From: an uncultured Lacinutrix sp.
GTDB lineage: Bacteria > Bacteroidota > Bacteroidia > Flavobacteriales > Flavobacteriaceae
Assembly (NCBI RefSeq): GCF_947500325.1
Contig: NZ_CANMRQ010000013.1
Location: 1 to 64,000, forward strand
Reading direction: 5' to 3'
Length of the DNA: 64,000 nucleotides
Shown: positions 1 through 19,771 of the stretch, piece after piece
How the letters are laid out: the number at the start of each line of letters is the position of its first letter
Numbering within the stretch: the first letter of the stretch is position 1
Position numbers and translations under genes: made by a program
Notes under the pieces: model-generated
Told to the model about the DNA's origin: nothing
Databases searched by the model: none
The model's input: only the letters and a program-made list of their open reading frames with translations

Positions 1-94
1 CAATCGACAAGGTTAGAAACTAATTTAGTGTAAACACATAAGCTTTAACTTGTGTAAACTATGTATCTTAACGAACAGTTAAAAACCAAACAGA
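1..94 (+). other. Possible degenerate right arm of an upstream cassette repeat
   Basis: No gene is seen here. The stretch contains actaatttagtg followed by taaacacata, which resembles the segment ctaactttagtgcttaaacac in the right half of the repeat at 7160-7289, and it ends with cagttaaaa about 15 nt before the first gene. It sits where the right arm of a preceding repeat would be expected, but the core is not convincing. The left part of any repeat would lie outside the window. Confidence 0.3.
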
Positions 95-1087
95 ATGAGT
101 AACTTACTTTACTATCCTTACATAGATGTTCCTCGCACAGATTGGACCTTAAGGACTCTTTTGTATTATGACAATATTGGTTCAATTGTTCCGCAAGAAT
201 ACTTTTACGAACCTGAACAAAACTATGATGAATTTATGCTTGAAATGGTTCGTAGTGGACTTGTTACACCAATAAACCCAATTGATGTTTTAGACAATCC
301 TTGGGAATCTACTCGACCCTTTATTGAATTAATACACGACAATAGAAAAAAGCTGAAAAAGGCACAAAAAAGATTTATTAGTGGACATCGAGGAAATATT
401 CACCAAGATAAGTTCCCTAAAGCAAACATACACGCTGATAAATTTGACGGAGAAATATTCTATCAATTAGAACAACTTGGTTTAGCCGAAAGAAGTGAAG
501 GAAATTGGTATTCGGTGGAAAAAAAGACAGCTAACAACCTAATGAATTTTTTAGCTACACTGATAAGTGCTAAAACCGATAGATTACCAGCAACGGATTA
601 TGTAAAACCATTTTATTACCGAAATTCTTTTAAAAAAATACAGGAAAAAAGAGAAACAATTCTAACGAGTTTAATCCCATTTCCTCAAGAAATTGATTTA
701 AATCGCCTAATAAAATTTAAAGAAAAACACACTGACTTATTGCAAGCATTTAGAACTCAAGTGGAATTAATTGCTCTTGACCCAAACATTATAGAAGGAA
801 CACCATTATTCTACACACGATTGGCAGAATTAACTCAGCGCAAAGATGAATTGTCTGCTAAAATGAATGAAAGCAAGTTCAATGGAATTTTGTTCGGTAC
901 CGTTTGTGGTTTAATTGGTGCTTATCAAGGAATCGCATCAGCATCTACAACAGGAACTATTTTAGGAGCACTTCCTGGATTTGCAAATGCGGTTTATTCT
1001 GCTCTACAAATTGAAAGAGCGGAAAATATATTTGACCAAAGTGGATTGAAATATTTGGCTTTAGCCGATAAAAGATTAAGAAAATAA
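95..1087 (+). CDS. DUF6236-like hypothetical protein (first cassette-type gene)
   Basis: A 330-residue protein of unknown function. The N-terminus, with YYPYIDVP at residues 6-13 followed by LRTLLYYDNIGSIVP, matches my memory of the DUF6236 family, which begins with a tyrosine-rich YYPYI..P..W segment and a LYWD..SIVP motif; this is recall, not a search result. The middle is charged and helical (RKKLKKAQKR; a Lys/Glu-rich stretch near 185-260). Near 275-310 a Gly/Ala-rich hydrophobic stretch (FGTVCGLIGAYQGIASAS...GTILGALPGF) could be a membrane hairpin. No catalytic motif is evident. The gene stands alone, with a cassette-type repeat starting 9 nt after the stop. The ATG at 95 is used because the conserved start follows immediately. 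Confidence 0.75.
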   Translation: MSNLLYYPYIDVPRTDWTLRTLLYYDNIGSIVPQEYFYEPEQNYDEFMLEMVRSGLVTPINPIDVLDNPWESTRPFIELIHDNRKKLKKAQKRFISGHRGNIHQDKFPKANIHADKFDGEIFYQLEQLGLAERSEGNWYSVEKKTANNLMNFLATLISAKTDRLPATDYVKPFYYRNSFKKIQEKRETILTSLIPFPQEIDLNRLIKFKEKHTDLLQAFRTQVELIALDPNIIEGTPLFYTRLAELTQRKDELSAKMNESKFNGILFGTVCGLIGAYQGIASASTTGTILGALPGFANAVYSALQIERAENIFDQSGLKYLALADKRLRK

Positions 1088-1095
1088 AACCAGTT

Positions 1096-1224
1096 GCCAA
1101 CAATGACTATTAGTAATTGCTTGTTCTCGCCTACTTCTGAAAATCCTCGCAGATTTTCAGTTTGGTGTGTACTTGCAAAGTTAACCGCTAAACCACGCAA
1201 CTACTCATAGCCGAGACCGTTGGC
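1096..1224 (+). repeat. Cassette-type inverted repeat 1 (attC-like)
   Basis: Left core GCCAAC (1096-1101) pairs with right core GTTGGC (1219-1224). Inner arms TAATTGC on the left and GCAACTA on the right also pair imperfectly. A central hairpin with arms CTGAAAATC and GATTTTCAG lies at 1137-1160. It starts 9 nt after the preceding stop and ends 24 nt before the next ATG. The same layout recurs six more times downstream. Confidence 0.85.
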
Positions 1225-1247
1225 CACAATACAAACGAACGATCCAA

Positions 1248-2264
1248 ATGAGTGAAATACATTACTTTCAAAGATATTCCCAAAAAGAAAATGTAATAAC
1301 AAATAATACGTTATTATTATTTTCTCGTCTTTATAATCAATCTCCTTATAAATTCAACCTGTTCTTGAATGAATTAACGAATGATTTAGATATTAATGTA
1401 GGAATTTCGTTTAAACAACAGACTAAAGCAAAAAACTCTATTCCTGACGGTTCAATAACTCAAGAAAGTTTTAAAATAGCAATCGAAACAAAACTATCTG
1501 AAAAATTTTCAATTAACCAATTGGTTAATCATTTAGATAGTTTTAAAAATGAAAAATATTCTATTCTTTTAGGTTTAAGTCCTAAAAAACCTTCGAATAA
1601 TAAAATTAAAGAAATCGAGCAGCAAGTAGTTAATTACAATGCAGAAAATAACACGAAAATTAGTTTCATATCTGTAACTTTTAAAGACATTGTATTTAAG
1701 TTTAATGAGGTAATTAATGACTACGATTTTGAATTACAACAAATTATAGACGATTTTGAAAGTTTCTGTTATTCAGTTGGAATGATTAAAGATGATGAAT
1801 ACAGAATGTTAACCATTGCTTGCGGAAAAACCTTAAATGATAATTTTAAGAACAATGTTTATTACGACCCATCAGATAGAGGATATTCAAGTTGTACTTA
1901 TTTAGGAATATACAAAAACAAGAGTGTTAGAGGAATTGGAAAAATAGAAAATATTATTACTGCAAATCTTAATGAAAAAGGTAAATTAGATATTATAAAT
2001 GCAACCAACGGAAGTGTAACCGAAACTCAAAAAAGTAACATTATCGAAATGATTAATGATGCAAACGTGAATTTAGGTTGGAATATAAGAGAAAATCATA
2101 AATTCTTTTGTGTTACTAACTTTGAAAAAACAGATTTCAAAAAAACATCAAAAAATGGATTGTTTGGGAAAAAGTATTTTAATTTGAGTTATTTAATTGA
2201 AAATATTAAAGAAAAAAACACAATAGAAATTGCTGAATTATTGAAAGAAAAAGATTGGAAATAA
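1248..2264 (+). CDS. PD-(D/E)XK nuclease-like protein
   Basis: A 338-residue protein whose first half looks like a PD-(D/E)XK nuclease fold. IHYFQRYSQKENVITNNTL (residues 4-22) precedes PDG at about 66-68, and E-T-K sits about 15 residues later in IAIETKL, followed by a helix NQLVNHL. That spacing of Pro-Asp and Glu-x-Lys is the classical metal-binding and catalytic set of the superfamily. The second half (from about 175) has no motif I recognise and may be a target-recognition or regulatory domain. Substrate is unknown; stand-alone nucleases of this kind occur in defence and mobile contexts, but nothing here proves that. It is a solitary gene between repeats 1 and 2. ATG 1248 lies 24 nt after the repeat core. 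Confidence 0.75.
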   Translation: MSEIHYFQRYSQKENVITNNTLLLFSRLYNQSPYKFNLFLNELTNDLDINVGISFKQQTKAKNSIPDGSITQESFKIAIETKLSEKFSINQLVNHLDSFKNEKYSILLGLSPKKPSNNKIKEIEQQVVNYNAENNTKISFISVTFKDIVFKFNEVINDYDFELQQIIDDFESFCYSVGMIKDDEYRMLTIACGKTLNDNFKNNVYYDPSDRGYSSCTYLGIYKNKSVRGIGKIENIITANLNEKGKLDIINATNGSVTETQKSNIIEMINDANVNLGWNIRENHKFFCVTNFEKTDFKKTSKNGLFGKKYFNLSYLIENIKEKNTIEIAELLKEKDWK

Positions 2265-2272
2265 ATAAAGTG

Positions 2273-2458
2273 GCTAACAAAGTGTAAAAAAATAAGGGTT
2301 TTGGTTCTTAAATCAAAGTTCAGTGCATTTTACAAAGTCCGCAAAATTTACAATTTTGCGTGTCTATTAAAAAAAAGAAAAATTGTAAATTTGGCTAAGT
2401 GATAAACCGAAAGTTCAGTCCTTCAAAATCCCTTACTATTCTTACACAAACCGTTGGC
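2273..2458 (+). repeat. Cassette-type inverted repeat 2 (attC-like, longest)
   Basis: Left core GCTAAC (2273-2278), right core GTTGGC (2453-2458). Inner arms differ from the other copies: AGTGTAA..AATAAGGG.TTTTG on the left and CAAAATCCCTTACTATTCTTACAC on the right (read in parts) pair with each other. A perfect 9-bp hairpin with a 3-nt loop lies at 2340-2360 (CGCAAAATT / AATTTTGCG). At 186 bp it is the longest copy. It begins 9 nt after the preceding stop and ends 20 nt before the next start. Confidence 0.8.
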
Positions 2459-2477
2459 TGTAATTTAAACAAACCTT

Positions 2478-3008
2478 ATGGTAGGATACTTAATGCGAAA
2501 GTTTCTTTTCAAAAAGTTGTCGAATGTGATAACTGACATTGAGTTGACTAAAAATGGTTTTATAATAAATGAACCTTTTGGTGCAAAACCTAAAAATATT
2601 AAATGGAATCAGATAAAATCAATAAGGTTTTCGAGTTATGACAAAGTCCTTATTGTAAAAACAGCTGAAAACGAAATCGCTCTGAATGACGACCAAATTG
2701 GCTGGTATGAATTTATCCAAAATATTCCTAAATCATTTAGGCAGTTTGACTTTAAAAAAGCTGATTTGATTATTGATTCTCTGAAATCTTGCGAAGTTTG
2801 TGGAATCATAGCTGTAAGAAGCAATATTTGTAAAGTTTGTGACTCTAAACCTTGGAATCTAAATAGTGAAAAAAGTAAAGTGGAATATTTAAAACAAAAA
2901 CAACTTGAACATTTCGAATATGAAATGAAAAACAAAATAGAAATTAAGGAATTTTCAGAACCTGAACACGGATTTAAAGCTGACAGTAACTGGAAATTGT
3001 ATATATGA
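2478..3008 (+). CDS. Hypothetical protein with paired Cys motif
   Basis: A 176-residue protein with no family I can name. The first two thirds are a beta-rich, positively charged region reminiscent of small PH-like or YcxB-like domains (INEPFGAKPKNIKWNQIKSI). CEVCG at about residues 107-111 and CKVCD at about 118-122 form a CxxC-x7-CxxC pair typical of a zinc knuckle. The C-terminus is a Lys/Glu-rich helix. There is no signal peptide, so it is probably cytoplasmic. A second in-frame ATG at 2493 (MRKFLFKKL) would remove five residues and is equally plausible. The gene stands alone between repeats 2 and 3. Confidence 0.65.
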   Translation: MVGYLMRKFLFKKLSNVITDIELTKNGFIINEPFGAKPKNIKWNQIKSIRFSSYDKVLIVKTAENEIALNDDQIGWYEFIQNIPKSFRQFDFKKADLIIDSLKSCEVCGIIAVRSNICKVCDSKPWNLNSEKSKVEYLKQKQLEHFEYEMKNKIEIKEFSEPEHGFKADSNWKLYI

Positions 3009-3020
3009 AAAAAAACTACA

Positions 3021-3151
3021 GCTAACACTATGTATAATTAATTGCTTGGTTCACTGCCGACTTACGAACATTCCTGCGAAATATTCTATCTGTGATTTAT
3101 TTACTAAATTAGTTGCTTAATCACGCAACTATCCTTACACCAAACGTTGAC
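3021..3151 (+). repeat. Cassette-type inverted repeat 3 (attC-like)
   Basis: Left core GCTAAC (3021-3026), right core GTTGAC (3146-3151). Inner arms TATGTATAATTAATTGC and GCAACTATCCTTACAC pair imperfectly. It shares CTATCTGTGATTTATTT exactly with repeat 7 and TTTACTAAATTAGTTGCT exactly with repeat 5. It starts 13 nt after the preceding stop and ends 38 nt before the next ATG. Confidence 0.85.
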
Positions 3152-3188
3152 ATTCATTATGAAATCATCTCTATAGAATATTACAAAT

Positions 3189-4412
3189 ATGAAAATATCA
3201 ATTTATTTGAGTCTTCTAATTCTGTTTTCAATTTCTTGTAATCAAATCGATAATAGAACAATTAATTATACTGACAATTCGGGAAAATCAGTTAATAAAA
3301 ATAATGATGAAGCTTCTTTATTAATAGGTTATTATGATATCTACAAACGTAAAAGTTCATTATTAAGATATAAATTAGTAAATGGAATTTTGCAAAGTGT
3401 AGATACATTAAATACCTTTTCAAGTGATAGTGTTTATTATTCTAAAATAAATCGAATTCTAAAAAACAGATATATAATAACTGGAGTTGGAGATATAATA
3501 GACATAAAAACAAACTCTATTTTAAAAACTGAAAATAGCACATTTTCATATTCAAAAGGAGACTCACTAATATTTTATCTGGATAAGCCAAACGAATATG
3601 GTTTATATAACCTAAAAAATAGAACATATAAAAAAGTCTCAGATTCTTTTTTTTCTTCTAATAGAAAGTACTATTCCAGTAATAATAACTACAAATTATC
3701 AGTTGAGAATCATACGAATAAAAAGGATTTTGCACATGTGATAGAAATAGAATCTACTGAATTGAATAAAACTAGCTTCATAAATCAAAATAACCTTTTT
3801 CAAAAAAAAATTTTTATAGAAAACAGGAATGGTACAAAAGAAATAGTAGTAAAAAATGCTGGCGTAGGAACTTTACTAAAAAGATTCGCAAATGCAAAAT
3901 TAGATGTTCCAATGCTTTGGATTGATAATACTAATTTTTTATATAGCCATATAAATAAAAATAAAGCAACAATAAAATTAGTTAATATTGAGAATAGTGA
4001 TGAAGCTACAATATGCTCTATTAATGACATTGAGCAATCTATTAGAAATGCATACTTTTTTAAAGATATTGATAAAAACATTATTTATTCTTGTGAAAAA
4101 GGAAAGTTTAAAATCAATATTTCTAAAATGACATGTTCGGAATACGAATACGAAAATCTAGGTCACAACTTTTATAGGCAAACACAAGGTGGAAAATTAT
4201 TTTATAGAGACACACAAATAGGAGAACTACCTTATAATCAAAAATCTAACCAAAGAATTTATACGAGAAACAGCTATTTAGCAATGTATGACGGAACAAT
4301 TACTGGAAAAATTAATGGTTTAAAAATATGGCATTCAAAAAATAACAAATGGCTGGAAATAAAAACTCCGCATAATATAAATATATCAATAATTGGATGG
4401 TTAACTATTTAA
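3189..4412 (+). CDS. Secreted lipoprotein of unknown function
   Basis: A 407-residue protein starting with a lipoprotein signal peptide: MKISIYLSLLILFSIS then Cys17 in a lipobox-like ISCN. The mature part is rich in Tyr, Ser, Asn and Lys, with short alternating hydrophobic stretches (RYIITGVGDIIDIKTNSIL, YGLYNLKNRTY, LWIDNTNFLYSH). This would fit a beta-propeller-like outer-membrane or periplasmic protein, but no repeat is regular enough to claim one. There is no catalytic motif. It is a solitary cassette-type gene between repeats 3 and 4; ATG 3189 lies 38 nt after the repeat core. Very low GC makes it resemble the flanking cassettes more than the chromosomal genes. Confidence 0.7.
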   Translation: MKISIYLSLLILFSISCNQIDNRTINYTDNSGKSVNKNNDEASLLIGYYDIYKRKSSLLRYKLVNGILQSVDTLNTFSSDSVYYSKINRILKNRYIITGVGDIIDIKTNSILKTENSTFSYSKGDSLIFYLDKPNEYGLYNLKNRTYKKVSDSFFSSNRKYYSSNNNYKLSVENHTNKKDFAHVIEIESTELNKTSFINQNNLFQKKIFIENRNGTKEIVVKNAGVGTLLKRFANAKLDVPMLWIDNTNFLYSHINKNKATIKLVNIENSDEATICSINDIEQSIRNAYFFKDIDKNIIYSCEKGKFKINISKMTCSEYEYENLGHNFYRQTQGGKLFYRDTQIGELPYNQKSNQRIYTRNSYLAMYDGTITGKINGLKIWHSKNNKWLEIKTPHNINISIIGWLTI

Positions 4413-4423
4413 AATAACTAAAT

Positions 4424-4551
4424 ACCAACAACGTGTATAGCTCATTGCGGTTGAATTCCTTAATCAGAATTCATTGCAATTTGCTACCTTCGAATTACGG
4501 TGGAAAATCATAGCTAATTTTCCGCAACGAGCCATACATAAAAACGTTGAC
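4424..4551 (+). repeat. Cassette-type inverted repeat 4 (attC-like, two hairpins)
   Basis: Left core ACCAAC (4424-4429), right core GTTGAC (4546-4551). Inner arms GTGTATAGCTCATTGC and GCAACGAGCCATACA pair imperfectly. Two private hairpins are present: TGAATTC/GAATTCA at 4452-4473 and GGAAAAT/ATTTTCC at 4502-4523. It starts 12 nt after the preceding stop. The longest frame of the next gene opens inside this repeat, at 4474. Confidence 0.85.
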
Positions 4552-4584
4552 AGTAATGTGAGCAAAGAACTCCGAATTAAACAA

Positions 4585-5472
4585 ATGAACTTTTTGAAAC
4601 TACCAAATTTATTATTTATAACATTTTATTTTTTGATTTTTTGCAACCCTTTATTTAGCCAAAAATTAGACCCAAAAGGACGAATTTTTTTTAAACCAGA
4701 CCATATCATTAAATCTGAAATTACAAATAAAGATTATTTAATTCATATGTCTTTTCCAAAGAATTATTCTATTCAGGACAGTATAACATATCCTGTGCTT
4801 TATGTTTTGGATGGCAAAAGTACATTTGGATATTTCGAATCATCTTACATTGATTTTGAGAAAATCGAAGATGTGATTCTCGTTGGAATCAGTCATAAGG
4901 TAAATGGAATAGAATCAAAAATTAATCGATTTAATGACTACACACCACATCGCGATACAATAAGTGAAAGAAAATTTGAGAAGAATTTTGGTGTGGAAAA
5001 AGGAACTATCAAAACTGGCGGAGCTGATAAATTTTTAGAATGCTTAAAAAAAGAAATAATCCCATTTATCGAGGAACACTATAAAACTAATTCTGACAAA
5101 GGAATTTCAGGTCATTCTCTTGGTGGTTTATTTACAGCATACTGCTTTTTGAATTCTGACAATTACTTCACTCGATTTGGAATAAATAGTCCTTCATTTC
5201 AACTTAATGAAGAAATATTTTTAGATCCAGCAATTATTAAATTCACGAATAATAAAATTTGGGAAATTAAACCAACCAAAGTATTTATTTCGACCGGAGA
5301 AAATGAAAGCCCAATGATGGTATCAAATATGATTAAATTTAGCATGTTCCTTAAAAAAAGAAACTATGACAATATTGATATGGATTGGCACATATATAGA
5401 AATGAAACACATACGTCTGTAATTCCATTTTGCTTTAAAGGAACACTGACAACATTATATGGAAAAAAATAA
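4585..5472 (+). CDS. Secreted alpha/beta-hydrolase esterase (esterase D / Fes-like)
   Basis: A 295-residue hydrolase resembling the putative-esterase family that includes enterobactin esterase-like and acyl-transferring enzymes. After a signal peptide (MNFLKLPNLLFITFYFLIFCNPLFSQ) come YPVLYVLDG, a typical early strand motif, then the nucleophile elbow GHSLGG near residues 176-181 (Ser178) and a late His near residue 276 in ETHTSV; a Glu/Asp in STGENES is the likely acid. The substrate is probably an ester outside the cytoplasm, identity unknown. The frame runs back to 4474, inside the preceding repeat; ATG 4585 was chosen because it lies 34 nt after the repeat core and begins a proper signal peptide. 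It is a solitary cassette-type gene. Confidence 0.85.
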   Translation: MNFLKLPNLLFITFYFLIFCNPLFSQKLDPKGRIFFKPDHIIKSEITNKDYLIHMSFPKNYSIQDSITYPVLYVLDGKSTFGYFESSYIDFEKIEDVILVGISHKVNGIESKINRFNDYTPHRDTISERKFEKNFGVEKGTIKTGGADKFLECLKKEIIPFIEEHYKTNSDKGISGHSLGGLFTAYCFLNSDNYFTRFGINSPSFQLNEEIFLDPAIIKFTNNKIWEIKPTKVFISTGENESPMMVSNMIKFSMFLKKRNYDNIDMDWHIYRNETHTSVIPFCFKGTLTTLYGKK

Positions 5473-5480
5473 ACACTACA

Positions 5481-5613
5481 GCCGACAACGTGTATATTTA
5501 ATTGCTTTGGCAATTGCCTATTTGGAAAATTCCTTCAGAATTTTCTCGCGTTCGTTTTTGTTTACTAAATTAGTTGCTGAAACACGCAACTAACCATACA
5601 CAAAACCGTTGGC
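5481..5613 (+). repeat. Cassette-type inverted repeat 5 (attC-like)
   Basis: Left core GCCGAC (5481-5486), right core GTTGGC (5608-5613). Inner arms ACGTGTATATTTAATTGC and GCAACTAACCATACAC pair imperfectly. Central hairpin GAAAATTC/GAATTTTC at 5525-5545. It begins 9 nt after the preceding stop and ends 36 nt before the next ATG. Confidence 0.85.
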
Positions 5614-5648
5614 TACAATATCTAATCAAATCTAGTCACCATTCATAA

Positions 5649-6236
5649 ATGAATCCAAAAGAAGAAAACAAAATACTATTGGTACTTGATATTGATGAAA
5701 CTCTAGTTCATGCTACTCCAACGGAATTAAATAGAAAAGCTGATTTTAAAGTGTTTAACTATTACGTATATCTTAGACCATATTTGAATCACTTTCTAAA
5801 TGAAATTAAGAATGATTTTTCAGTGGCTGTTTGGTCATCTGCATCAGATGATTATGTGGAAGAAGTAGTTAAAATTATTTTTCCTGAAGAAATGAAATTA
5901 GAGTTTGTTTGGGGAAGAAGCAGATGTAAACCTAAAAGGTTTTTGAACGTAGACAATTTTGGTAATTATGAAAGTCGATATTTAGATCATTATAATTTTA
6001 TTAAGCCTTTAAAAAAGGTTAAGAAAAAAGGATTTAGTCTTGATAAGATCCTTATTATTGATGATACTCCGCACAAATCAAGTGATAATTTTGGAAACGC
6101 CATTTATCCAAAAGAATATTTAGGTGAACTAGATGATGATGAATTAAAAGCGCTATCCGAATACTTGAAAACTCTGAAAGACAAAACAAACGTTAGAAAA
6201 ATTGAAAAAAGAGGTTGGAGAAACAATCTTAAATAA
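5649..6236 (+). CDS. HAD-superfamily FCP1/SCP-like phosphatase
   Basis: A 195-residue protein with the DxDET nucleophile motif of the FCP1/NIF branch of HAD phosphatases: LLVLDIDETLVHA, with Asp14 and Asp16. Motif II is in VAVWSSAS, and the late acidic pair appears in ILIIDDTP about 120 residues further. Length and motif order fit the minimal catalytic domain, which in eukaryotes dephosphorylates phosphoserine on RNA polymerase or other proteins. Bacterial versions are mostly uncharacterised, and a nucleotide or protein substrate is equally possible. There is no signal peptide, so it acts in the cytoplasm. It stands alone between repeats 5 and 6 and is unrelated in sequence outside the motifs to the next gene, also HAD-like. 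Confidence 0.8.
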   Translation: MNPKEENKILLVLDIDETLVHATPTELNRKADFKVFNYYVYLRPYLNHFLNEIKNDFSVAVWSSASDDYVEEVVKIIFPEEMKLEFVWGRSRCKPKRFLNVDNFGNYESRYLDHYNFIKPLKKVKKKGFSLDKILIIDDTPHKSSDNFGNAIYPKEYLGELDDDELKALSEYLKTLKDKTNVRKIEKRGWRNNLK

Positions 6237-6243
6237 TACAGTA

Positions 6244-6374
6244 GCCAACAACGTGTATAGTCAATTGCTTGAATTTCTCTGTGCCAATCGGAAAACTCTC
6301 CGAATTTCCCTCAGACTCGCCCCCTTTTGTTATCTTTAGTCACAAAGCAACTAACCATACACAAACTCATTAGA
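6244..6374 (+). repeat. Cassette-type inverted repeat 6 (attC-like, right core decayed)
   Basis: Left core GCCAAC (6244-6249) and inner arms ACGTGTATAGTCAATTGC / GCAACTAACCATACAC are intact. The expected right core GTTGGC is replaced by ATTAGA (6369-6374), although the flanking TACAAT is still the same as in repeat 5. A central hairpin GGAAA/TTTCC lies near 6290-6310. The next coding frame runs into this repeat from the right. It begins 8 nt after the preceding stop. Confidence 0.8.
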
Positions 6375-7160
6375 TACAATTTGAGAAACAAGAAACTTTT
6401 GATATTAGATTTAGATGGAGTACTAATAACAAATCCATCGTGGAAAGCTGACCAAATTCACTCGGATGGATATTCTGAATTTAATAAATCTTGTGTTGAG
6501 AATTTTAACCAACTTCTATCTCTTTCGGATTTTGATATCTGGTTAAGTTCGACAAGGAGAACAGTAAAAACCTTGGCGGAATTTAATGTGATTTTTGAAA
6601 ATCGTGGAATAAAAAACGATATCGTTGGATTTTTGCCTGAATACGTTAATTGTAAAAACAGAAAAGAAGAAATATTAAAATTTATTGCGGAATTTAAAAT
6701 ATCTAATTTTCTAATTATCGATGATGATAAATCATTAAACGGATTGAATAATGAGATAAAAGAAAACTTAATTTTAACCGAATTAACAAAAGGGTTTAAT
6801 TCTGAAAAACTAAAAGAAGCATCTCAAAAAATAACTGAATTAATCGGAATTGATAAATACAGAATTTATACCAAATACAACGGACAATACGATGTAATGA
6901 CTGATTTTAGGACTGGTACGAAAAGTGATTTAAAAAAAATTTCAGAACGTGAATGGAGTATTATTGAGGAAATTGAAGATAGTTTATGTGTATTAAATAC
7001 GGGAAAATACTCAAAAAATATACAAGCCGAAATGCAAGCGAAAATTGACAAACTAAAACCTATGATTACGGATGAAATATGGCAGTTGATTAAAACTAAT
7101 AAAAAGTCAGTTCAACTAGAAAAAGAATCTTGGCTGAATAGAATGTTAAAAAAACTGTAG
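6327..7160 (+). CDS. HAD-like protein with C-terminal extension
   Basis: A protein of up to 277 residues with a HAD-type motif I (LLILDLDGVLI), a motif-II-like LSSTRRT, and a late acidic motif FLIIDDDKSL near residue 135. The C-terminal 120 residues are Lys/Glu-rich and match nothing I recognise. The function is probably a cytoplasmic phosphatase or related hydrolase acting on an unknown substrate. The start is uncertain. ATG 6327 lies inside repeat 6; TTG 6381 lies only 6 nt after the decayed core, and no ATG exists between them. The domain proper begins near residue 24, so either start would give a working fold. It is the last gene of the cassette-type run. Confidence 0.65.
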   Translation: MLSLVTKQLTIHKLIRYNLRNKKLLILDLDGVLITNPSWKADQIHSDGYSEFNKSCVENFNQLLSLSDFDIWLSSTRRTVKTLAEFNVIFENRGIKNDIVGFLPEYVNCKNRKEEILKFIAEFKISNFLIIDDDKSLNGLNNEIKENLILTELTKGFNSEKLKEASQKITELIGIDKYRIYTKYNGQYDVMTDFRTGTKSDLKKISEREWSIIEEIEDSLCVLNTGKYSKNIQAEMQAKIDKLKPMITDEIWQLIKTNKKSVQLEKESWLNRMLKKL

Positions 7161-7289
7161 GTAACAATGTGTATAATTCATTGCTAGTTAGAGCCTACTT
7201 ACGAAAGTCCTCGCGGACTTTCTATCTGTGATTTATTTGCTAACTTTAGTGCTTAAACACACAACGAAATCATACACTAGACCGTTGTG
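7160..7289 (+). repeat. Cassette-type inverted repeat 7 (attC-like, end of array)
   Basis: Left core GGTAAC (7160-7165) overlaps the last base of the preceding stop codon; right core GTTGTG (7284-7289) is a variant. Inner arms ATGTGTATAATTCATTGC and ACAACGAAATCATACAC pair imperfectly. Perfect central hairpin GAAAGTCC/GGACTTTC at 7203-7222. No further copy follows: the next 219 nt lead to a chromosomal-type MFS gene and show no repeat, so this marks the right edge of the array. Confidence 0.85.
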
Positions 7290-7508
7290 TAACATTTGAA
7301 AACATAATCTTGAAAAATAAAATTCTTTTTTTTACTTCTGAATTTCGCAATTAAATGAAAAATACTAGCATTGCGACATAATATTTCACCATATTGAGAA
7401 GACGGTATATGAGCAATACAGTTGAATTCTTGATAAAAATAATATTGGAGTCAACTGTTATAATGCATTTCAAACCAAATAGGTAAGCCTACAATTTTAA
7501 AAACTATA

Positions 7509-8687
7509 GTGAAAAGATCTAAGATAATACTACCCATAATTGTAATCGCCCAATTCTGTTGCACATCACTTTGGTTTGCTGGTAATGGCGTAATGCAAAA
7601 CTTGGCAACTAATTTTCAACTTAATCAAAGCGCTTTAGGTCATCTCACATCTGCTGTGCAATTTGGGTTTATTTCTGGCACATTATTATTTGCAATTTTA
7701 ACCATTGCAGATCGATTTTCTCCATCAAAAGTATTTCTTTTAAGTGCCATTATTGGAGCTTTATTTAATTCAGGAATGCTATTAGACAATAATAATTTAA
7801 CTAGCCTATTAATATTTCGTTTTGGTACAGGTTTTTTTCTTGCAGGTATTTATCCTATAGGAATGAAAATAGCTTCAGACTATTTTGAAAAAGGTCTTGG
7901 AAAATCGCTTAGTTTTTTAGTTGGTGCATTAGTATTAGGAACAGCATTCCCCCATTTACTTAAAGGTCTAGTAACACTATCTTCATGGAAGTTTATATTA
8001 ATTTGTACGTCATGCTTAGCACTTATTGGCGGTATATTAATAATTATGTTTGTTCCTAATGGTCCTTATAGAAATCCAAGTCAAAAAATAGAATTCTCTG
8101 TTTTTTTTAAAGTATTTAAAAATAGTAATTTTAGAGCTGCAGCATTTGGGTATTTTGGACACATGTGGGAATTGTATGCTTTCTGGACATTTGTACCAAT
8201 ACTATTATCTACCTATAGTTCAATATACCCTAATACTACCCTTAACGTACCAATGCTATCTTTTTTAATAATTGGAGTTGGTGGTATTTCTTGTGTTATT
8301 GGCGGTTACCTTTCTATAAAAATAGGAACTAAAAAAACAGCCCGGATAATTTTATTATTATCATGCTTATGCTGTATAGTCTCTCCTTTAATATTCATGA
8401 TAGACTCTGTTAATATACTATTTGGTTTTTTATTTTTCTGGGGTATGGTTGTTATTGCAGATTCTCCATTGTTTTCTGCCCTAGTTGCCAATAATGCACC
8501 ATCTAAGTGGAAAGGAACTGCACTTACCATTGTAAATTGTATTGGATTTTCTATAACTATAATTAGCATTCAACTTCTTACACTTTTACATGAAGTTATG
8601 AATCCAATTTATATATATACTGTGTTAGCTTTAGGTCCTATATTAGGCTTAATAGCCTTATTAAAAAAAGAAAACATAAAACACTAA
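7509..8687 (+). CDS. Major facilitator superfamily transporter
   Basis: A 392-residue integral membrane protein with about twelve hydrophobic segments in two halves, the usual size for MFS secondary transporters. The inter-helix loop DRFSPSKVF after TM2 is in the position of the MFS signature, and the central cytoplasmic loop is near residues 185-205 (NGPYRNPSQK). TM4 carries FRFGTGFFLAGIYPIGMK. Substrate cannot be read from sequence. ATG at 7509... is a GTG at this position, preceded by 219 nt without any gene after repeat 7. It lies next to, but not coupled with, the macro-domain gene. Confidence 0.85.
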   Translation: MKRSKIILPIIVIAQFCCTSLWFAGNGVMQNLATNFQLNQSALGHLTSAVQFGFISGTLLFAILTIADRFSPSKVFLLSAIIGALFNSGMLLDNNNLTSLLIFRFGTGFFLAGIYPIGMKIASDYFEKGLGKSLSFLVGALVLGTAFPHLLKGLVTLSSWKFILICTSCLALIGGILIIMFVPNGPYRNPSQKIEFSVFFKVFKNSNFRAAAFGYFGHMWELYAFWTFVPILLSTYSSIYPNTTLNVPMLSFLIIGVGGISCVIGGYLSIKIGTKKTARIILLLSCLCCIVSPLIFMIDSVNILFGFLFFWGMVVIADSPLFSALVANNAPSKWKGTALTIVNCIGFSITIISIQLLTLLHEVMNPIYIYTVLALGPILGLIALLKKENIKH

Positions 8688-8789
8688 TAATGTTTTAATT
8701 ACACGTAAAAACACCTATTTCCCATTGTAGTAAAACTACTCTAAGACAACTCTATAAATAGCTTTAGTTTTGTGTAAAATCTATATATC

Positions 8790-9440
8790 ATGTTTAAAAA
8801 AACCATTGCTATACAAGACACCACATTAGATAAATCATTAGAAACAGCAGGAAGAGAACCTATGCTACCAAGAGGTTCTGCCTTGATAACAACATCTGGC
8901 AATTTATATTCTAAAGGCATGAAAGCTATTATAAACGCTGCTACTGGTGCTATGACAAAAAGCGGAGGTATTTTTGAACCTACAGAAACATCAATTGCTA
9001 ACTCTATAAAAAACTCATTTACCTTAATGTCTGTTAATGGCTATAATAAAATAGCCGTACCATTTATTGGTGGTAAAATATTTATATCGCGCATAGGGGT
9101 TACTGCCAATGCTCTTGCTAAATGTATTATAGATGCTTGCTTTAAAGCTAATAGCGATGGTTCGCAATTTGTTTTAGTAATTCATGGCACTCATGATTAT
9201 AACATATTTAAACAGGAAATTAATACTAACTACCCTGCTATTAATTATAGTAAAGTATTAAAAGAAGGTAGTATTCTTGATTTTAGTCTTCACCAATGCG
9301 ATACTATAATGAATGCGGCAAATATGGAAGTAAAATTTGGAGGTGGATTATCTGGCATTATTGCCAATGCTACTGGTGAACAAGTTAAAATAGATGCAGA
9401 AGCTTTGGCTGCTATAAAACAGTTTTGGAAAGCCCAATAA
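8790..9440 (+). CDS. Macro-domain protein with apparently permuted motif order
   Basis: A 216-residue protein containing both halves of a macro (ADP-ribose-binding) domain in swapped order. Residues 25-60 (LPRGSALITTSGNL then MKAIINAATG) look like the middle of a macro domain, where GxAxxT...L...vIHa is expected. Residues 85-110 (NGYNKIAVPFIGG) look like the late SIAFPxIGTG loop. The signature that normally opens the domain, GDI...D.IVNAAN..L..GGGV, appears at the C-terminal end (GSILDFSLHQCDTIMNAANMEVKFGGGLSG, in parts) near 160-190. Family members bind or hydrolyse ADP-ribose and relatives. A TAgtTTTG -7 box lies at 8765-8772. Cytoplasmic; no obvious partner gene. Confidence 0.75.
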   Translation: MFKKTIAIQDTTLDKSLETAGREPMLPRGSALITTSGNLYSKGMKAIINAATGAMTKSGGIFEPTETSIANSIKNSFTLMSVNGYNKIAVPFIGGKIFISRIGVTANALAKCIIDACFKANSDGSQFVLVIHGTHDYNIFKQEINTNYPAINYSKVLKEGSILDFSLHQCDTIMNAANMEVKFGGGLSGIIANATGEQVKIDAEALAAIKQFWKAQ

Positions 9441-13053: not shown

Positions 13054-14091
13054 CTAGCTATCTACATGAGTAGCATAACCTCTCCATTTTTCTATGCATT
13101 GCTGCATATCTTCTGGAATCGCGGTGTTAAACTGCATCATTTCTCCTGTGTCTGGATGTTTAAAACCAAGAGTTTTTGCATGTAATGCTTGACGCGGTAA
13201 AACTTTAAAACAGTTATCTACAAACTGTTTGTATTTGGTAAATGTAGTCCCTTTTAGTATGCGTTCTCCACCATAACGTTCATCATTAAATAATGTGTGC
13301 CCAATATGTTTCATGTGCACGCGAATTTGGTGTGTACGACCAGTTTCTAATTTACAGGACACTAAAGTTACATATGTTAATCGCTCTAATACCTTAAAAT
13401 GCGTAACAGCTGGTTTCCCTTTATCCGCATCATCGTCTAAATACACTGTATTTTGTAATCTATTCTTTGGATGGCGACCTATATTACCTTCTATTGTACC
13501 TTCTTCTTCTTCCATATTACCCCAGACAATAGCTACATATTCACGCTCGCTAGTTTTATCTTTAAATTGTTTAGACAAATGCGCCATAGCGTGCTCTGTC
13601 TTTGCAACCACTAACAATCCACTAGTATCTTTATCTATTCTATGTACTAATCCTGGGCGATCACTAGAATTTATTGGTAAGTTATCAAAATGATAAATTA
13701 AAGCATTTATTAACGTTCCAGAATAATTACCATGACCAGGATGTACAACCATGCCTGCTGGTTTATTTACTACTAAAAGCGTATCATCTTCATAAACAAT
13801 ATCTAGTGGTAAATCTTCACCAACCAATAAGTTTTCAAATGGCGGATGCTCAAACAAGACTCGAATTTTATCTAATGGTTTTACTTTATAATTAGATTTT
13901 ACTTGCTTATCGTTAACGTATATATTTCCGTTTTTGGCAGCTGTTTGAATTTTATTACGAATTGCATTTTCTATACGATTCATTAAATATTTATCAATAC
14001 GTAAAGGAGCTTGCCCTTTATCTACAGTAAAAGCATGATGCTCGTATAGTTCGTTATCGCTTTCGGGTTGTTTTGGTGTATAATCTTCCAT
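13054..14091 (-). CDS. RluA-family 23S rRNA pseudouridine synthase (RluD-like)
   Basis: A 345-residue enzyme that isomerises uridines to pseudouridine, probably in 23S rRNA. An N-terminal S4 RNA-binding domain (RIDKYLMNRI...GNIYVNDKQVKSNYKV, about residues 32-75) is followed by the catalytic domain. There HRIDKDTSGLLVVAKT, near 150-165, carries the catalytic Asp, and TGRTHQIRVHM is the second family signature. Architecture and length match RluD/RluA-type synthases; the exact target site cannot be told. Its ATG overlaps the stop of the upstream PASTA gene by one base (TAATG-type), so the two are translationally coupled. Confidence 0.92.
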   Translation of the reverse strand: MEDYTPKQPESDNELYEHHAFTVDKGQAPLRIDKYLMNRIENAIRNKIQTAAKNGNIYVNDKQVKSNYKVKPLDKIRVLFEHPPFENLLVGEDLPLDIVYEDDTLLVVNKPAGMVVHPGHGNYSGTLINALIYHFDNLPINSSDRPGLVHRIDKDTSGLLVVAKTEHAMAHLSKQFKDKTSEREYVAIVWGNMEEEEGTIEGNIGRHPKNRLQNTVYLDDDADKGKPAVTHFKVLERLTYVTLVSCKLETGRTHQIRVHMKHIGHTLFNDERYGGERILKGTTFTKYKQFVDNCFKVLPRQALHAKTLGFKHPDTGEMMQFNTAIPEDMQQCIEKWRGYATHVDS

Positions 14092-14648
14092 TATTGAGGG
14101 CGATTACCATTACCTAAAACAATATCAATAGTTGATGTTTTTGGGAGTAATTCGCCTTTTTTAATATTTCTATTTTGGTAACGCATACCTCTTACTTCAT
14201 CTTTACCTAAATGATCTATATAAGTTGTCTTTCCTATTTTAAAACCTAGCGCTTCTAATGTTGGTTTAGTTTGTCTAAACGTTCTACCAACTAAATTTGG
14301 CACTGCTACTTTTTTATATCCTGAAGGATTTAGTGTAATATATATTTTACGATTTTCTTTAACATTAGCTCCTGCTTTAGGATCTTGATCGATAACAGAA
14401 TATTTTGGATAATCTGGATTAAAATTTGCCGAATCTTGAATTTCCATAACCAAATTATTTTCGTCTAATTCTATTTGAGCAATATCAATAGACTTACCTT
14501 TTAAATTAGGTACTGTTTCAAAATCACCATTATTGGTTGTTATATTTAACCATTTTAATATTAAAAAGCACAAAACAATTACAGCTATAGCAGCCAATGC
14601 TAATTGTTTAAAAAAGACTTTACTGGTTAAAAACTTAATAATACTCAT
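14091..14648 (-). CDS. PASTA-domain membrane protein
   Basis: A 185-residue single-pass protein. A short cytoplasmic N-terminus is followed by a membrane helix (FFKQLALAAIAVIVLCFLILKW) and then at least two PASTA modules (VPNLKGKSIDIAQIELDENN...; VPNLVGRTFRQTKPTLEALG...). PASTA modules bind peptidoglycan or muropeptides, so a role linked to wall synthesis is plausible; ddl is divergently transcribed next to it. The longest frame opens with a TTG at 14654; ATG 14648 (MSIIKF) is preferred. A TAtaTTTG -7 box lies at 14677-14684. Coupled to the pseudouridine synthase downstream. Confidence 0.85.
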   Translation of the reverse strand: MSIIKFLTSKVFFKQLALAAIAVIVLCFLILKWLNITTNNGDFETVPNLKGKSIDIAQIELDENNLVMEIQDSANFNPDYPKYSVIDQDPKAGANVKENRKIYITLNPSGYKKVAVPNLVGRTFRQTKPTLEALGFKIGKTTYIDHLGKDEVRGMRYQNRNIKKGELLPKTSTIDIVLGNGNRPQ

Positions 14649-14676
14649 GGACAAATTCGTGTTAAAAATGGTAGGA

Positions 14677-14684
14677 CAAATATA
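14677..14684 (-). promoter_or_regulatory. -7 box upstream of the PASTA gene
   Basis: On the minus strand the sequence reads TAtaTTTG, the Bacteroidota -7 consensus TAnnTTTG, ending 28 nt before the ATG. No clear -33 element was identified. Confidence 0.55.
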
Positions 14685-14795
14685 TAAAAACTAAAAGGTT
14701 TTTCGTTTGATATAAAATAAATGATATTTTAGCTAAACTCAATTACTCAAGAGTTATTGTATTAGTAAAAACATACCAAAATAAATTTAGTCTAA

Positions 14796-15770
14796 ATGAA
14801 AAAAAATATCGCCATTATTATGGGTGGATATTCTAGCGAATACCAAATCTCTTTAAAAAGTGGAAATGTTGTATATAATACTTTAAGCAAAGCTAAATAC
14901 AATGCCTATCGTATTCATATTTTTAAAGACAAATGGGTATTTGTAGATGCAAATAACAAAGAATATCCAATTAATAAAAATGATTTTTCGGTAGAGGTAA
15001 ATGGAACAAAAATTACTTTTGATTGTGTTTTTAATGCTATTCACGGTTCTCCTGGCGAGGATGGTTTTATGCAAGCCTATTTTAAGCTTATAAATATGCC
15101 ACAAACTAGTTGTGATATGTACCAATCTAGTTTGACTTTTAATAAAAGAGATTGCTTAAGTACTTTAAAACCTTATGGTATATTAACAGCCGAAAGTTAC
15201 TATCTAAATCTAGGGGATAAAATAAATGAAGACGAGATAATTAGCAAAGTAGGCTTACCTTGTTTTGTTAAAGCAAATAAAGCCGGTAGTAGTTTTGGCA
15301 TTACTAAAGTTCATAAAAAACAAGATCTTAAAGAAGCTATTGCTGTTGCATTTAAAGAAGATGACGAAATAATTATTGAATCCTTTTTAGATGGCACAGA
15401 AGTTTCGGTAGGTGTTATTACTTATAAAGGAAAAACAAAAGTATTACCAATTACTGAAATAGTAAGTGATAATGATTTCTTTGATTATGAAGCAAAATAC
15501 TTAGGGAAATCGCAAGAAATAACACCTGCTAGACTTACTAAAATTCAAGAAGAAAAAGTTAATACTGTGGCTAAAAAAGTGTACGACATTTTAAAAATGA
15601 AAGGTTACTCACGTAGCGAATTTATTTTTAAAGATAATGAACCGCATTTATTAGAAATGAATACTGTACCTGGATTAACAAACGAAAGTATCTTACCTCA
15701 ACAAGCTGCAGAAGCCGGTATATCTATGGAAGAATTATTTGATAGCGCCATTGAAGAAGCTTTAAAATAA
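14796..15770 (+). CDS. ddl: D-alanine--D-alanine ligase
   Basis: A 324-residue ATP-grasp enzyme that joins two D-alanines for peptidoglycan precursor synthesis in the cytoplasm. Visible signatures are the N-terminal IAIIMGGYSSEYQISL (the Ser-Glu substrate loop), HGSPGEDG near residue 85, the ATP-binding LPCFVKANKAGSSFGITKV, and the C-terminal metal-binding EMNTVPGLTNESILPQ. Length is typical. It starts a + strand run with the zinc-ribbon protein and coaD, divergent from the PASTA gene. Confidence 0.95.
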   Translation: MKKNIAIIMGGYSSEYQISLKSGNVVYNTLSKAKYNAYRIHIFKDKWVFVDANNKEYPINKNDFSVEVNGTKITFDCVFNAIHGSPGEDGFMQAYFKLINMPQTSCDMYQSSLTFNKRDCLSTLKPYGILTAESYYLNLGDKINEDEIISKVGLPCFVKANKAGSSFGITKVHKKQDLKEAIAVAFKEDDEIIIESFLDGTEVSVGVITYKGKTKVLPITEIVSDNDFFDYEAKYLGKSQEITPARLTKIQEEKVNTVAKKVYDILKMKGYSRSEFIFKDNEPHLLEMNTVPGLTNESILPQQAAEAGISMEELFDSAIEEALK

Positions 15771-15808
15771 TTATAGTACATTTATATCACTAACCTAAAA
15801 CTAACTAT

Positions 15809-16414
15809 ATGATATTTTATGGCACTAATGCTTCAAGGCTAAAAGATGGACGATTAAGTAATGTTACTTGTCCAAATTGTGACAACCAAACACATATGAC
15901 TTACAGCGTTTTTGGCAAATACGCATATATTTATTGGATTCCTTTTTTTCCTATTGGAAAAGAAAACATTTTAGAGTGTGATAGTTGTAAAAAGACATTT
16001 AAGTTAAAAGAATTACCTCAACAAATTCAAAATAAATTTGAATTAGAAAAACATACTGGTGTTCCTATTAAACATTTTGCAGGATTTGGAGTAATAGCAA
16101 TAATAATTGCTTTTGTTATGTACTCTTCGTCCCAAAACAAAGCCAACAATTTAAAATATATTAATGCTCCAGAAATTGGAGATGTTTATTCTATTGATGG
16201 GAGCGAAAAAGGTTATTATTCTACAATGCGTGTAAAAGAAGTAACTAGTGATAGTATTTACTTAATAGTTAATGATTATGAAGTGGATAAAAAAAGTGGT
16301 ATTAATGATATTGATGTAGATAAAAACTATACAAATGAAGAATATCATATTTCTAAAGCAGGAATTATTGAACTATATAATAACGAAACGATTTTTGAAA
16401 TAGATAGAGATTAA
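15809..16414 (+). CDS. Zinc-ribbon membrane protein of unknown function
   Basis: A 201-residue protein beginning with a zinc ribbon: CPNCDNQTHM near residue 21 and CDSCKKTFKL near 54, separated by a hydrophobic aromatic segment (YAYIYWIPFFPIGKE). A membrane helix follows at about 92-108 (FGVIAIIIAFVMYSS), and the C-terminal 90 residues (GDVYSIDGSEKG...MRVKEVTSDSIYLIVNDYEV) form a small beta-rich domain, probably outside the membrane. No family name is certain. It lies between ddl and coaD in the same direction, gaps of 38 and 24 nt. Confidence 0.75.
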   Translation: MIFYGTNASRLKDGRLSNVTCPNCDNQTHMTYSVFGKYAYIYWIPFFPIGKENILECDSCKKTFKLKELPQQIQNKFELEKHTGVPIKHFAGFGVIAIIIAFVMYSSSQNKANNLKYINAPEIGDVYSIDGSEKGYYSTMRVKEVTSDSIYLIVNDYEVDKKSGINDIDVDKNYTNEEYHISKAGIIELYNNETIFEIDRD

Positions 16415-16438
16415 ATATAGTAATCAAAATAAAGAAAA

Positions 16439-16897
16439 ATGAAACGTGCTATTTTCCCAGGATCTTTTGATCCCATAACATTAGGCCATTACGATATTAT
16501 AGAACGCGGTGTAACACTTTTTGATGAAGTTATAGTCGCTATTGGTGTTAACGCTTCTAAAAAATATATGTTCTCTATAGAAGAACGTATGGATTTTATA
16601 AAAGCGGCCTTTAAACATGAACCTAAAATAAAAGTAGTAAGCTATAAAGGATTAACTGTTGATTTTTGTAAAAAGAATGATGTGGAATTTATTTTAAGAG
16701 GCTTAAGAAATCCGGCAGATTTTGAATTTGAAAAAGCCATAGCGCATACAAATCGTGACTTAGCTCCTATAGAAACAGTCTTTTTACTTACTGCAGCTAG
16801 CACTTCTTATATTGCATCTTCCATAGTAAGAGATGTTATTAGAAATAATGGTGATTATACTAAACTTGTTCCAGATAGTGTACGTGTAAAACAGTAA
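16439..16897 (+). CDS. coaD: Phosphopantetheine adenylyltransferase
   Basis: A 152-residue enzyme that transfers AMP from ATP to 4'-phosphopantetheine, the penultimate step of coenzyme A synthesis. The N-terminus FPGSFDPITLGHYDII contains the (T/H)xGH nucleotidyltransferase motif, the phosphate-binding RGLRNPADFEFE is intact, and the late STSYIASSIVRD takes the place of the ISSTxxR motif. Length (150-165 usual) and start are typical. Cytoplasmic; probably in the ddl transcript. Confidence 0.95.
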   Translation: MKRAIFPGSFDPITLGHYDIIERGVTLFDEVIVAIGVNASKKYMFSIEERMDFIKAAFKHEPKIKVVSYKGLTVDFCKKNDVEFILRGLRNPADFEFEKAIAHTNRDLAPIETVFLLTAASTSYIASSIVRDVIRNNGDYTKLVPDSVRVKQ

Positions 16898-16958
16898 TAA
16901 CTTGTAACATTTACTATTTATTTCATACTAATTAGTAGAATGATTTATCTAAAGTTTC

Positions 16959-17405
16959 ATGTTTCACCAAATTACATATTTGTTATTTAAAGCTAATCTT
17001 ATTCAGCCTTCTGAAAAGGATATATTGTTTTGGATGGAAAATAATGAGCTAAATAAAATAGAATATGCATTAGAACATGGTAACTATAAAACAAGAAAAT
17101 TAGCTGCTGAAGCTATAGAAAAAATTGGAAAACCGTCTTCGATTCCTATACTGCTTAAAAGCATAAATGATAACGTTAAAAACGTTTCTATTGCGGCTTT
17201 AAATGCTTTAGAAAAAATAGGTTCTAATGATGAGCTTATAAACACTATAATAAAAAAGCGTTTCAATTGGGCTAAACATATTTGTGATAATAAAAAAAGA
17301 AATGAAGCTAATAAAGGAAAAAAAATAAAAATCTATAGATGGGAACGCACTAGCAAAAAATCTTTTGAGCGTGTAAAAGAACAATTAAAACGGTCTATGA
17401 GATAA
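16959..17405 (+). CDS. HEAT-repeat protein
   Basis: A 148-residue protein with two clear HEAT helices pairs: NYKTRKLAAEAIEKIGKPSSIPIL and DNVKNVSIAALNALEKIGSNDELI (in parts, about residues 48-100). The C-terminus is strongly basic (KKRNEANKGKKIKIYRWER). HEAT repeats serve as protein-binding scaffolds; partner unknown. It ends 68 nt before the convergent histidine kinase gene. Confidence 0.7.
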   Translation: MFHQITYLLFKANLIQPSEKDILFWMENNELNKIEYALEHGNYKTRKLAAEAIEKIGKPSSIPILLKSINDNVKNVSIAALNALEKIGSNDELINTIIKKRFNWAKHICDNKKRNEANKGKKIKIYRWERTSKKSFERVKEQLKRSMR

Positions 17406-17472
17406 CCTTTTTTATTTGAATAGTATTCTCGCCGTGCTAATAACAATTCAATAAAAGCAGGTGTTAAATAAT

Positions 17473-19614: not shown

Positions 19615-19771
19615 TAATAGAAGTGTTTCATATACAGGGCTTTTTATATTAACAATGTAGTAAAAAAATTACAATTTAATTCACAATTTATTTAAACAGT
19701 AGAACTATAAATTATCCTCATTTATCAAGTGCCATAAACGAACAAACCATAAGCCACTAATAAAGAAATAT

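Follow-up and report, generated by a model that had tools for sequence, protein, structure and literature searches.

The stretch of DNA analysed here, called the window, comprises bases 1-64,000 of contig C13 (102,256 bp) of an uncultured Lacinutrix sp., whose genome of 4.57 Mb is assembled in 130 contigs. Its first 7.3 kb contain seven + strand open reading frames (ORFs), each followed by one attC-like inverted repeat, based on the ORF list and on a covariance model (R1) built from 43 repeats. An initial annotation made from the sequence alone had described this layout, and R1 places all seven repeats with E-values of 4e-24 to 4e-9. By model coordinates the repeats measure 141-199 bp rather than the 128-186 bp first given. 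Their left core lies 3-16 nt past the stop codon in 7/7 cases and reads AAC, except in repeat 5 (GAC), and genes 2-6 start 25-43 nt past the right core of the preceding repeat. We interpret positions 1-7296 as the far end, decayed in part, of a cassette array in the chromosome that belongs to an integron-like system, a reading to which we assign a probability of about 0.88.

Repeat 1 illustrates how the units are delimited: its left AAC (1099-1101) and right GTT (1219-1221) bound a core-to-core stretch on the + strand (1099-1221), and the crossover would be at G^TT. All seven cassettes lie on the + strand. Cassette 1 (95-1231), whose first bases lie off the contig, carries an ORF of 330 aa (95-1087) and a site at 1090-1231. 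Cassette 2 (1219-2465), with its opening core CG^TT at 1219, carries an ORF of 338 aa (1248-2264) and a long site (2267-2465), cassette 3 (2453-3158) an ORF of 176 aa (2478-3008) and a site at 3015-3158, and cassette 4 (3146-4558) an ORF of 407 aa (3189-4412) with a lipoprotein-like N-terminus, judged by eye, and a site at 4418-4558. These four of the seven genes match no Pfam family over the cut-off. Cassette 5 (4546-5620) encodes an esterase (PF00756; ORF 4585-5472, 295 aa from that ATG; site 5475-5620) and cassette 6 (5608-6381) a NIF-type phosphatase (PF03031; ORF 5649-6236, 195 aa). The site of cassette 6 (6238-6381) is decayed: its right core reads ATT (6369-6371), the GTT having been lost. 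The last cassette of the array, cassette 7 (6369-7296), has an ORF running to 7160 with a HAD_SAK_2 domain (PF18143) and a site at 7154-7296. The true start of gene 7 is probably near 6380, because the listed TTG at 6327 falls within repeat 6. Accordingly, the esterase and the two HAD-type genes named at the outset are backed by Pfam, and the label of gene 2 as nuclease-like is not.

Neither the window nor the remainder of C13 has an eighth R1 match at E<=1e-3, and the array ends at 7297-7508, before a gene for an MFS transporter (PF07690, 7509-8687). Three weaker matches on C13 were left uncounted: 8698-8781 (E 0.042) and two others with E of 0.1 and 0.4. The first of these, behind the MFS gene, was rejected as an array site because no cores could be read in it. 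Past the array, positions 7509-9440 hold the MFS transporter and a Macro-domain protein (PF01661). A phage collection gave no match to the array.

The same sites are found in large numbers elsewhere. Searching with R1, a step already proposed for these repeats, gave seven sites on C13, at least 85 in the genome and matches in 177/199 genomes of the family at E<=0.01. Since scoring covered 150 of the 3782 candidates, 85 is a minimum; likewise, 16 candidates were scored in each of most family genomes, so per-genome counts are minimum values. Within the genome the sites lie on C19, C36, C37, C39, C42, C45 and C46, among others. Because the site-bearing contigs C39, C42, C45 and C46 are only 4-7 kb long, the assembly probably broke within arrays. 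Joining C46 to the start of the window through a shared word was tried, and no overlap was found. In a congener, 112 sites lie on a single strand within 120 kb. With such numbers in the genome and its congener, the repeats of the window are not a product of chance.

In integrons, crossover takes place at G^TT. The bases past the GTT at the right end of a repeat therefore belong to the next cassette, and the left end of a repeat should complement the right end of the preceding repeat, not its own. The pattern was first noticed in the window by eye; we tested it afterwards on larger sets. In a first set of 74 neighbour pairs, from which 5 unresolved sites had been dropped, 56 matched at all six bases (mean 5.36 compared to 2.14 after shuffling). 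The larger set started from 143 loci, of which 94 had sites, with the window trimmed to 9000 bases and locus L134 excluded as a duplicate of the G207 record. Of 957 raw matches, 808 were near full length, and removing 44 that were unresolved or at an edge left 764 sites. Taking sites 150-2500 bp apart as neighbours, we obtained 629 pairs from 81 loci. The left 6-nt word is the exact complement of the right end of the previous repeat in 535/629 pairs (mean 5.58), compared to at most 22/629 in 1000 shuffles (mean 2.18) and only 31/629 for the repeat's own right end (mean 2.38). The 535 exact pairs use 129 distinct words. Sites that escape detection, such as window repeat 2, make some of these neighbours non-adjacent and lower the count.

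The right core is GTTR (748/764 sites) followed by five free bases, which replaces the GTTGRC core initially proposed. Counting GTT as bases 1-3, base 11 of the right end is A in 760/764 sites and its partner at the left end is C in 668/764, a fixed mismatch that closes the word. For the 629 pairs, the gene lies in the + orientation relative to the site in 536 cases and in the - orientation in 22, with 71 lacking an ORF. The array thus consists of single-gene cassettes with one attC-like site each, mostly in one orientation, and the unit ends, read from sequence, are complementary around a G^TT crossover.

Folding of 43 sites with RNAalifold predicts an R stem followed by an asymmetric loop of 3 vs 6 nt, then an L stem that contains a mismatch, and one further stem; 11/16 pairs show changes on both sides. 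For the 12 pairs outside the R stem, 93.0% are paired compared to 74.6% after shuffling, double-sided cells number 80 compared to 19.2, and the covariation score is 0.436 compared to 0.117. Four of five covariation measures were reached by 0/500 shuffles; for the fifth, the number of additional pair types (20 vs 16.8), 26/500 shuffles came as high. Shifting the columns by 1-3 positions gave scores of at most 0.096. The middle of the site is variable, with full-model matches of 63-228 bp, both extremes being among weak matches. The covarying pairs point to an attC-like site that folds into a hairpin with R and L boxes, as in integrons.

We located the heads of such arrays through their recombinase. 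In 15 stretches taken around the best sub-threshold matches to TIGR02249 (IntI), repeats lie near the recombinase in 12; one stretch (L036) is the head of the Lacinutrix genome itself, at a contig end. We then considered 80 loci, the best 80 of 517 relatives from named genomes, chosen by a tyrosine recombinase of about 375 aa; they come mostly from Flavobacteriaceae, with Marivirga, Flammeovirgaceae, Prolixibacteraceae, Saprospiraceae and a few other bins. Although 696 kb were searched upstream and 341 kb downstream, 196/203 repeats lie downstream of the recombinase on the same strand. A repeat is found in 37/42 loci with at least 3 kb past the recombinase stop. The contig ends less than 1 kb behind the recombinase in 26/80 loci and less than 1 kb before it in 0/80. 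A divergent zinc-ribbon gene lies within 600 bp of the recombinase in 72/80 loci (30 were aligned). The zinc protein of our genome has no Pfam or NCBIfam match and no PDB fold match at E<=0.001; it is likely a partner of the head recombinase.

Next to the recombinase lies a candidate attI. Among 39 heads with a first detected repeat within 3.5 kb, 29 contain the exact 9-nt GTT-word of that repeat behind the recombinase stop, 26-91 bp away in 27 cases and 134 and 233 bp away in the other two. A dyad precedes the word (mean score 8.9 vs 4.9 shuffled). Judged by these motifs, an attI-like site stands beside the recombinase, as in integrons. The Lacinutrix genome has a single such recombinase (C19:121-1245, - strand, 375 aa), with the adjoining zinc-ribbon gene, and past its stop come the dyad, ATTG^TTGTGTACAAT, that is, an attI-like site and a cassette start, and then the contig break. 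The gene neighbours of this head look common to two other genera (L037, L042; ORF lists), so the chromosomal place of the platform seems old. The window alone resembles a cluster of attC sites lacking an integrase (CALIN), as it had been annotated. The contig, however, begins inside the array, and a matching head is found on another contig of the genome, so that this label is not supported.

Repeats and recombinase also co-occur across the phylum. In a sample of 296 genomes, R1 matches 107 at E<=1e-4 and a recombinase profile matches 91 at E<=1e-60: both are present in 65, the recombinase only in 26, repeats only in 42 and neither in 163, without correction for genome relatedness. Repeats are therefore present in 65/91 genomes with the recombinase compared to 42/205 without it. 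Since the 11-row profile used and R1 derive from Flavobacteriaceae, counts outside this family are lower bounds; named genomes and the remaining genomes sampled may partly share species.

These data bear on whether the cassettes, though real, depend for their movement on a different recombinase of the host (XerC/XerD or another tyrosine recombinase), with the head only linked to the array. Eight further matches in the genome (24-36% identity to the head recombinase, the next best 33%) could supply such an enzyme, and the 42 genomes with repeats and no strong head-recombinase match fit the idea. Nonetheless, it leaves the position and strand of the head recombinase, the attI word directly past its stop and the conserved zinc-gene neighbour without explanation, and we consider it unlikely.

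A second possibility is an ordinary integron or CALIN with canonical attC cassettes, whose IntI is missing or located elsewhere. Known IntI integrons (class 1, Vibrio chromosomal) have very long arrays of one-gene cassettes in a single orientation, with an attI beside the recombinase and attC sites that form hairpins with R and L stems. The system described here shares all of these, with 112 sites in 120 kb, as well as the G^TT logic. A complete integron is also on record in Salinibacter ruber M1, termed a Bacteroidetes genome in the relevant part of PMC9024848. However, no family genome (0/199, at most 10 candidates scored per genome) exceeds the TIGR02249 cut-off. The attC core consensus of integrons is GTTRRRY, which fits 40/764 right ends; here the core is GTTR plus a free word that has an A-C mismatch at its foot. 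intI is usually divergent from its array, with known exceptions, whereas here the recombinase is on the strand of the array and the conserved divergent gene is that of the zinc-ribbon protein.

The recombinase itself differs as well. The spacing from KDR to HxLRH is 58-59 residues in 51/51 array-type recombinases compared to 100 in IntI1 (alignment), and our recombinase aligns with IntI4 (2A3V) at 114-277 and 303-373, the gap between being 25 residues compared to 68 in IntI4. By these alignments, array-type recombinases are without the IntI insert of about 43 residues. Passages of PMC8138268 and PMC9668308 describe this insert as essential for integron function, and the latter speaks of an IntI-specific additional domain in integron integrases. 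The best curated model is instead NF040815 (XerA; cut-off 220), which scores 225.8 for our recombinase and 235.2 for that of L042, and 214.5, below the cut-off, for the short type of L040. The best PDB sequence and fold matches are likewise XerA (4a8e, 5hxy), which aligns without the IntI insert, with IntI4 among the nearest solved structures. For L060, a close relative, a fold model (pLDDT 84.5) matches XerA 4a8e with Z 23.7 (9.5 A over 255 residues) and IntI4 2a3v with Z 19.8 (3.2 A over 251 residues); it has an extra N-terminal domain and is weak at residues 352-363, the site of the likely catalytic tyrosine. In 375-aa recombinases, model residues 1-100 form an N-terminal alpha/beta domain. 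XerA acts in chromosome dimer resolution at dif sites; the recombinases here differ from it by the additional domain of about 100 aa and by their place at cassette arrays.

With the insert absent and GTTRRRY rare, an ordinary integron is a very improbable explanation. Because these two features were tested and not found, we call the system integron-like and not a canonical integron: its layout, the structure of its sites and the boundaries of its units are those of an integron, whereas the insert and the core place it outside IntI integrons. In a tree, IntI1 sits on a long branch (4.07) at a fork with support 89/67, and since its place is unsure we make no claim on descent. In the part of PMC8138268 that treats a subgroup of integron-like tyrosine recombinases, no cassette arrays are named for insertion-less members. 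Literature searches, with preprints and most subscription journals outside their scope, found no description of such a system.

Evidence for mobility comes from the neighbours of homologous cassette genes. Out of 478 pairs, both neighbours differ in 255, one is common in 45 and both are the same in 2, at least one neighbour not being visible in 176. Pairs of units that share at least 97% identity and have different neighbours on either side number 62 (60 within a genome, 2 between genomes), from 19 families with 54 members. With one pair taken per family (n = 19), the units are fully identical (1.00) starting at the C/G of the opening CGTT, remain at 0.95-1.00 as far as the closing GTT and drop after it to 0.63, 0.37 and 0.37. 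Units have thus been duplicated and relocated. The comparison of window positions 1-7400 covered 60 genomes: ours and 12 congeners, 24 further members of the family and 23 from the order. Of these, 35 have matches; the matches listed consist of repeats, with up to 97% similarity between genera, and of one gene body, that of cassette 7 (83%, in G202). An identical order of genes and repeats in distant relatives, which would have spoken against mobility, is not seen among them. The initial proposals of an array of genes with their recombination sites, of mobility and of a Bacteroidota-type cassette system are therefore all supported, by the junction words (535/629), stem covariation, the differing neighbours and the breaks of identity at CGTT.

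Such similar repeats, also across genera, could in principle let units be shuffled by homologous recombination, with no site-specific step. Crossovers would then be expected anywhere in the 140 bp, yet identity ends at CGTT on both sides and the junction words remain matched, which makes this account highly improbable. The weakest account, dispersed terminator-like or MITE-like repeats that stand behind genes by chance, draws on hairpins past stop codons that could end transcripts and on the lack of any Rfam family at cut-off in 1-7500 (two sub-threshold matches, both within genes), but it predicts neither complementarity between neighbouring repeats nor CGTT unit boundaries nor a head recombinase, and we give it next to no credence. 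A second role of the repeats in transcription termination is possible.

Several observations weigh against the reading of the window as the end of an array served by the head recombinase. Its junction words, opening cassettes 2 to 7 in order, are imperfect, as in an old tail: they match at 5, 5, 4, 4, 6 and 4 of 6 bases (the first four computed, the last two by eye). The head lies on C19 and the array on C13, which makes their joining an inference. Where 3 kb or more follow the recombinase, 5/42 loci have no repeat by nhmmer, and 10/39 heads lack the exact attI word: one has 8 of its 9 bases and nine are wordless, although in these nine a nearer site may have been missed, as the first detected repeat is more than 1.1 kb away. 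The dyads of L040, L041 and L122 score no better than shuffled. Repeats occur without a strong recombinase match in 42/205 genomes, and the recombinase without repeats in 26/91. Finally, the link between recombinase and site is not one to one, because the recombinase at the head of such arrays can be of three types, with 375 aa, with 305 aa (L040 and L041, both in G159) or with 394 aa (L039, in G068). The 305-aa heads, with two copies in G159, have no N-terminal domain, and the 394-aa head of L039 has no zinc gene.

Sites on both strands are found in only 2/94 loci. In L127 they flank one recombinase in opposite directions, at 4989-6521 (- strand) and 13964-20896 (+ strand). A further sequence, GACCCGTCCTGAA, occurs 17 times in the 94 array loci at a constant short distance past the GTT core (L016, L017, L091, L126, L160, L170, L171, L174, L175, L182 and L196), and represents either an insertion sequence that targets cassette starts or a family of cassettes that all begin alike.

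Sites are also found on plasmids, with matches in 8 records including Persicobacter pPP2 (16 places), Tenacibaculum and a mobilizable Flagellimonas plasmid. On the last of these, from Flagellimonas marinaquae, a dihydrofolate-reductase-family gene forms a whole cassette that opens with GTTGGCATT and whose left end is complementary at 9/9 bases by eye. At 3238-6150 of this record (L201), a gene annotated as site-specific tyrosine recombinase/integron integrase, erm(F) and the dihydrofolate-reductase-family cassette adjoin. The 405-kb plasmid pPP2 of Persicobacter psychrovividus (L200) holds a long run of + strand genes, mostly hypothetical, which is probably a plasmid-borne array outside Flavobacteriaceae.

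Based on these sequence results, the mobile unit begins with the TT of one CG^TT core, ends with the G of the following core, and comprises one + strand gene and its attC-like site. The site would act, presumably single-stranded, as a hairpin with an R stem, an asymmetric loop, an L stem and a variable tip. In a free circle, because the two ends of the unit meet there, the private 6-nt word would pair fully and complete the R stem. Within the array, the R stem is broken beyond GTT/AAC, at a mean match of 2.38 of 6. A full R stem may favour circles as substrates. The head tyrosine recombinase, related to XerA and IntI, probably inserts circles at the short dyad attI and excises or shuffles cassettes, with the divergent zinc-ribbon protein as its likely partner.

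Taken further, this would be a second form of integron, widespread in Bacteroidota, with a XerA-like recombinase that has no IntI domain and perhaps a zinc-ribbon helper; we put this broader view at roughly even odds. Hairpin-cassette recombination would then have evolved, or been kept, on a path of its own, and the private self-complementary word, by which the R stem is completed in free circles alone, would single these out as substrates and keep the sites within arrays quiet. One survey is described, in the part of PMC2426708 concerned, as retaining matches that hold the additional domain or the 'intI patch'. A cassette system without the insert could escape filters that demand it, even though its sites are present in 177/199 of the family genomes sampled. 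The system offers a natural test of which part of the protein reads folded sites, and its arrays, with units on plasmids too, may hold a large unread pool of shuffled accessory genes.

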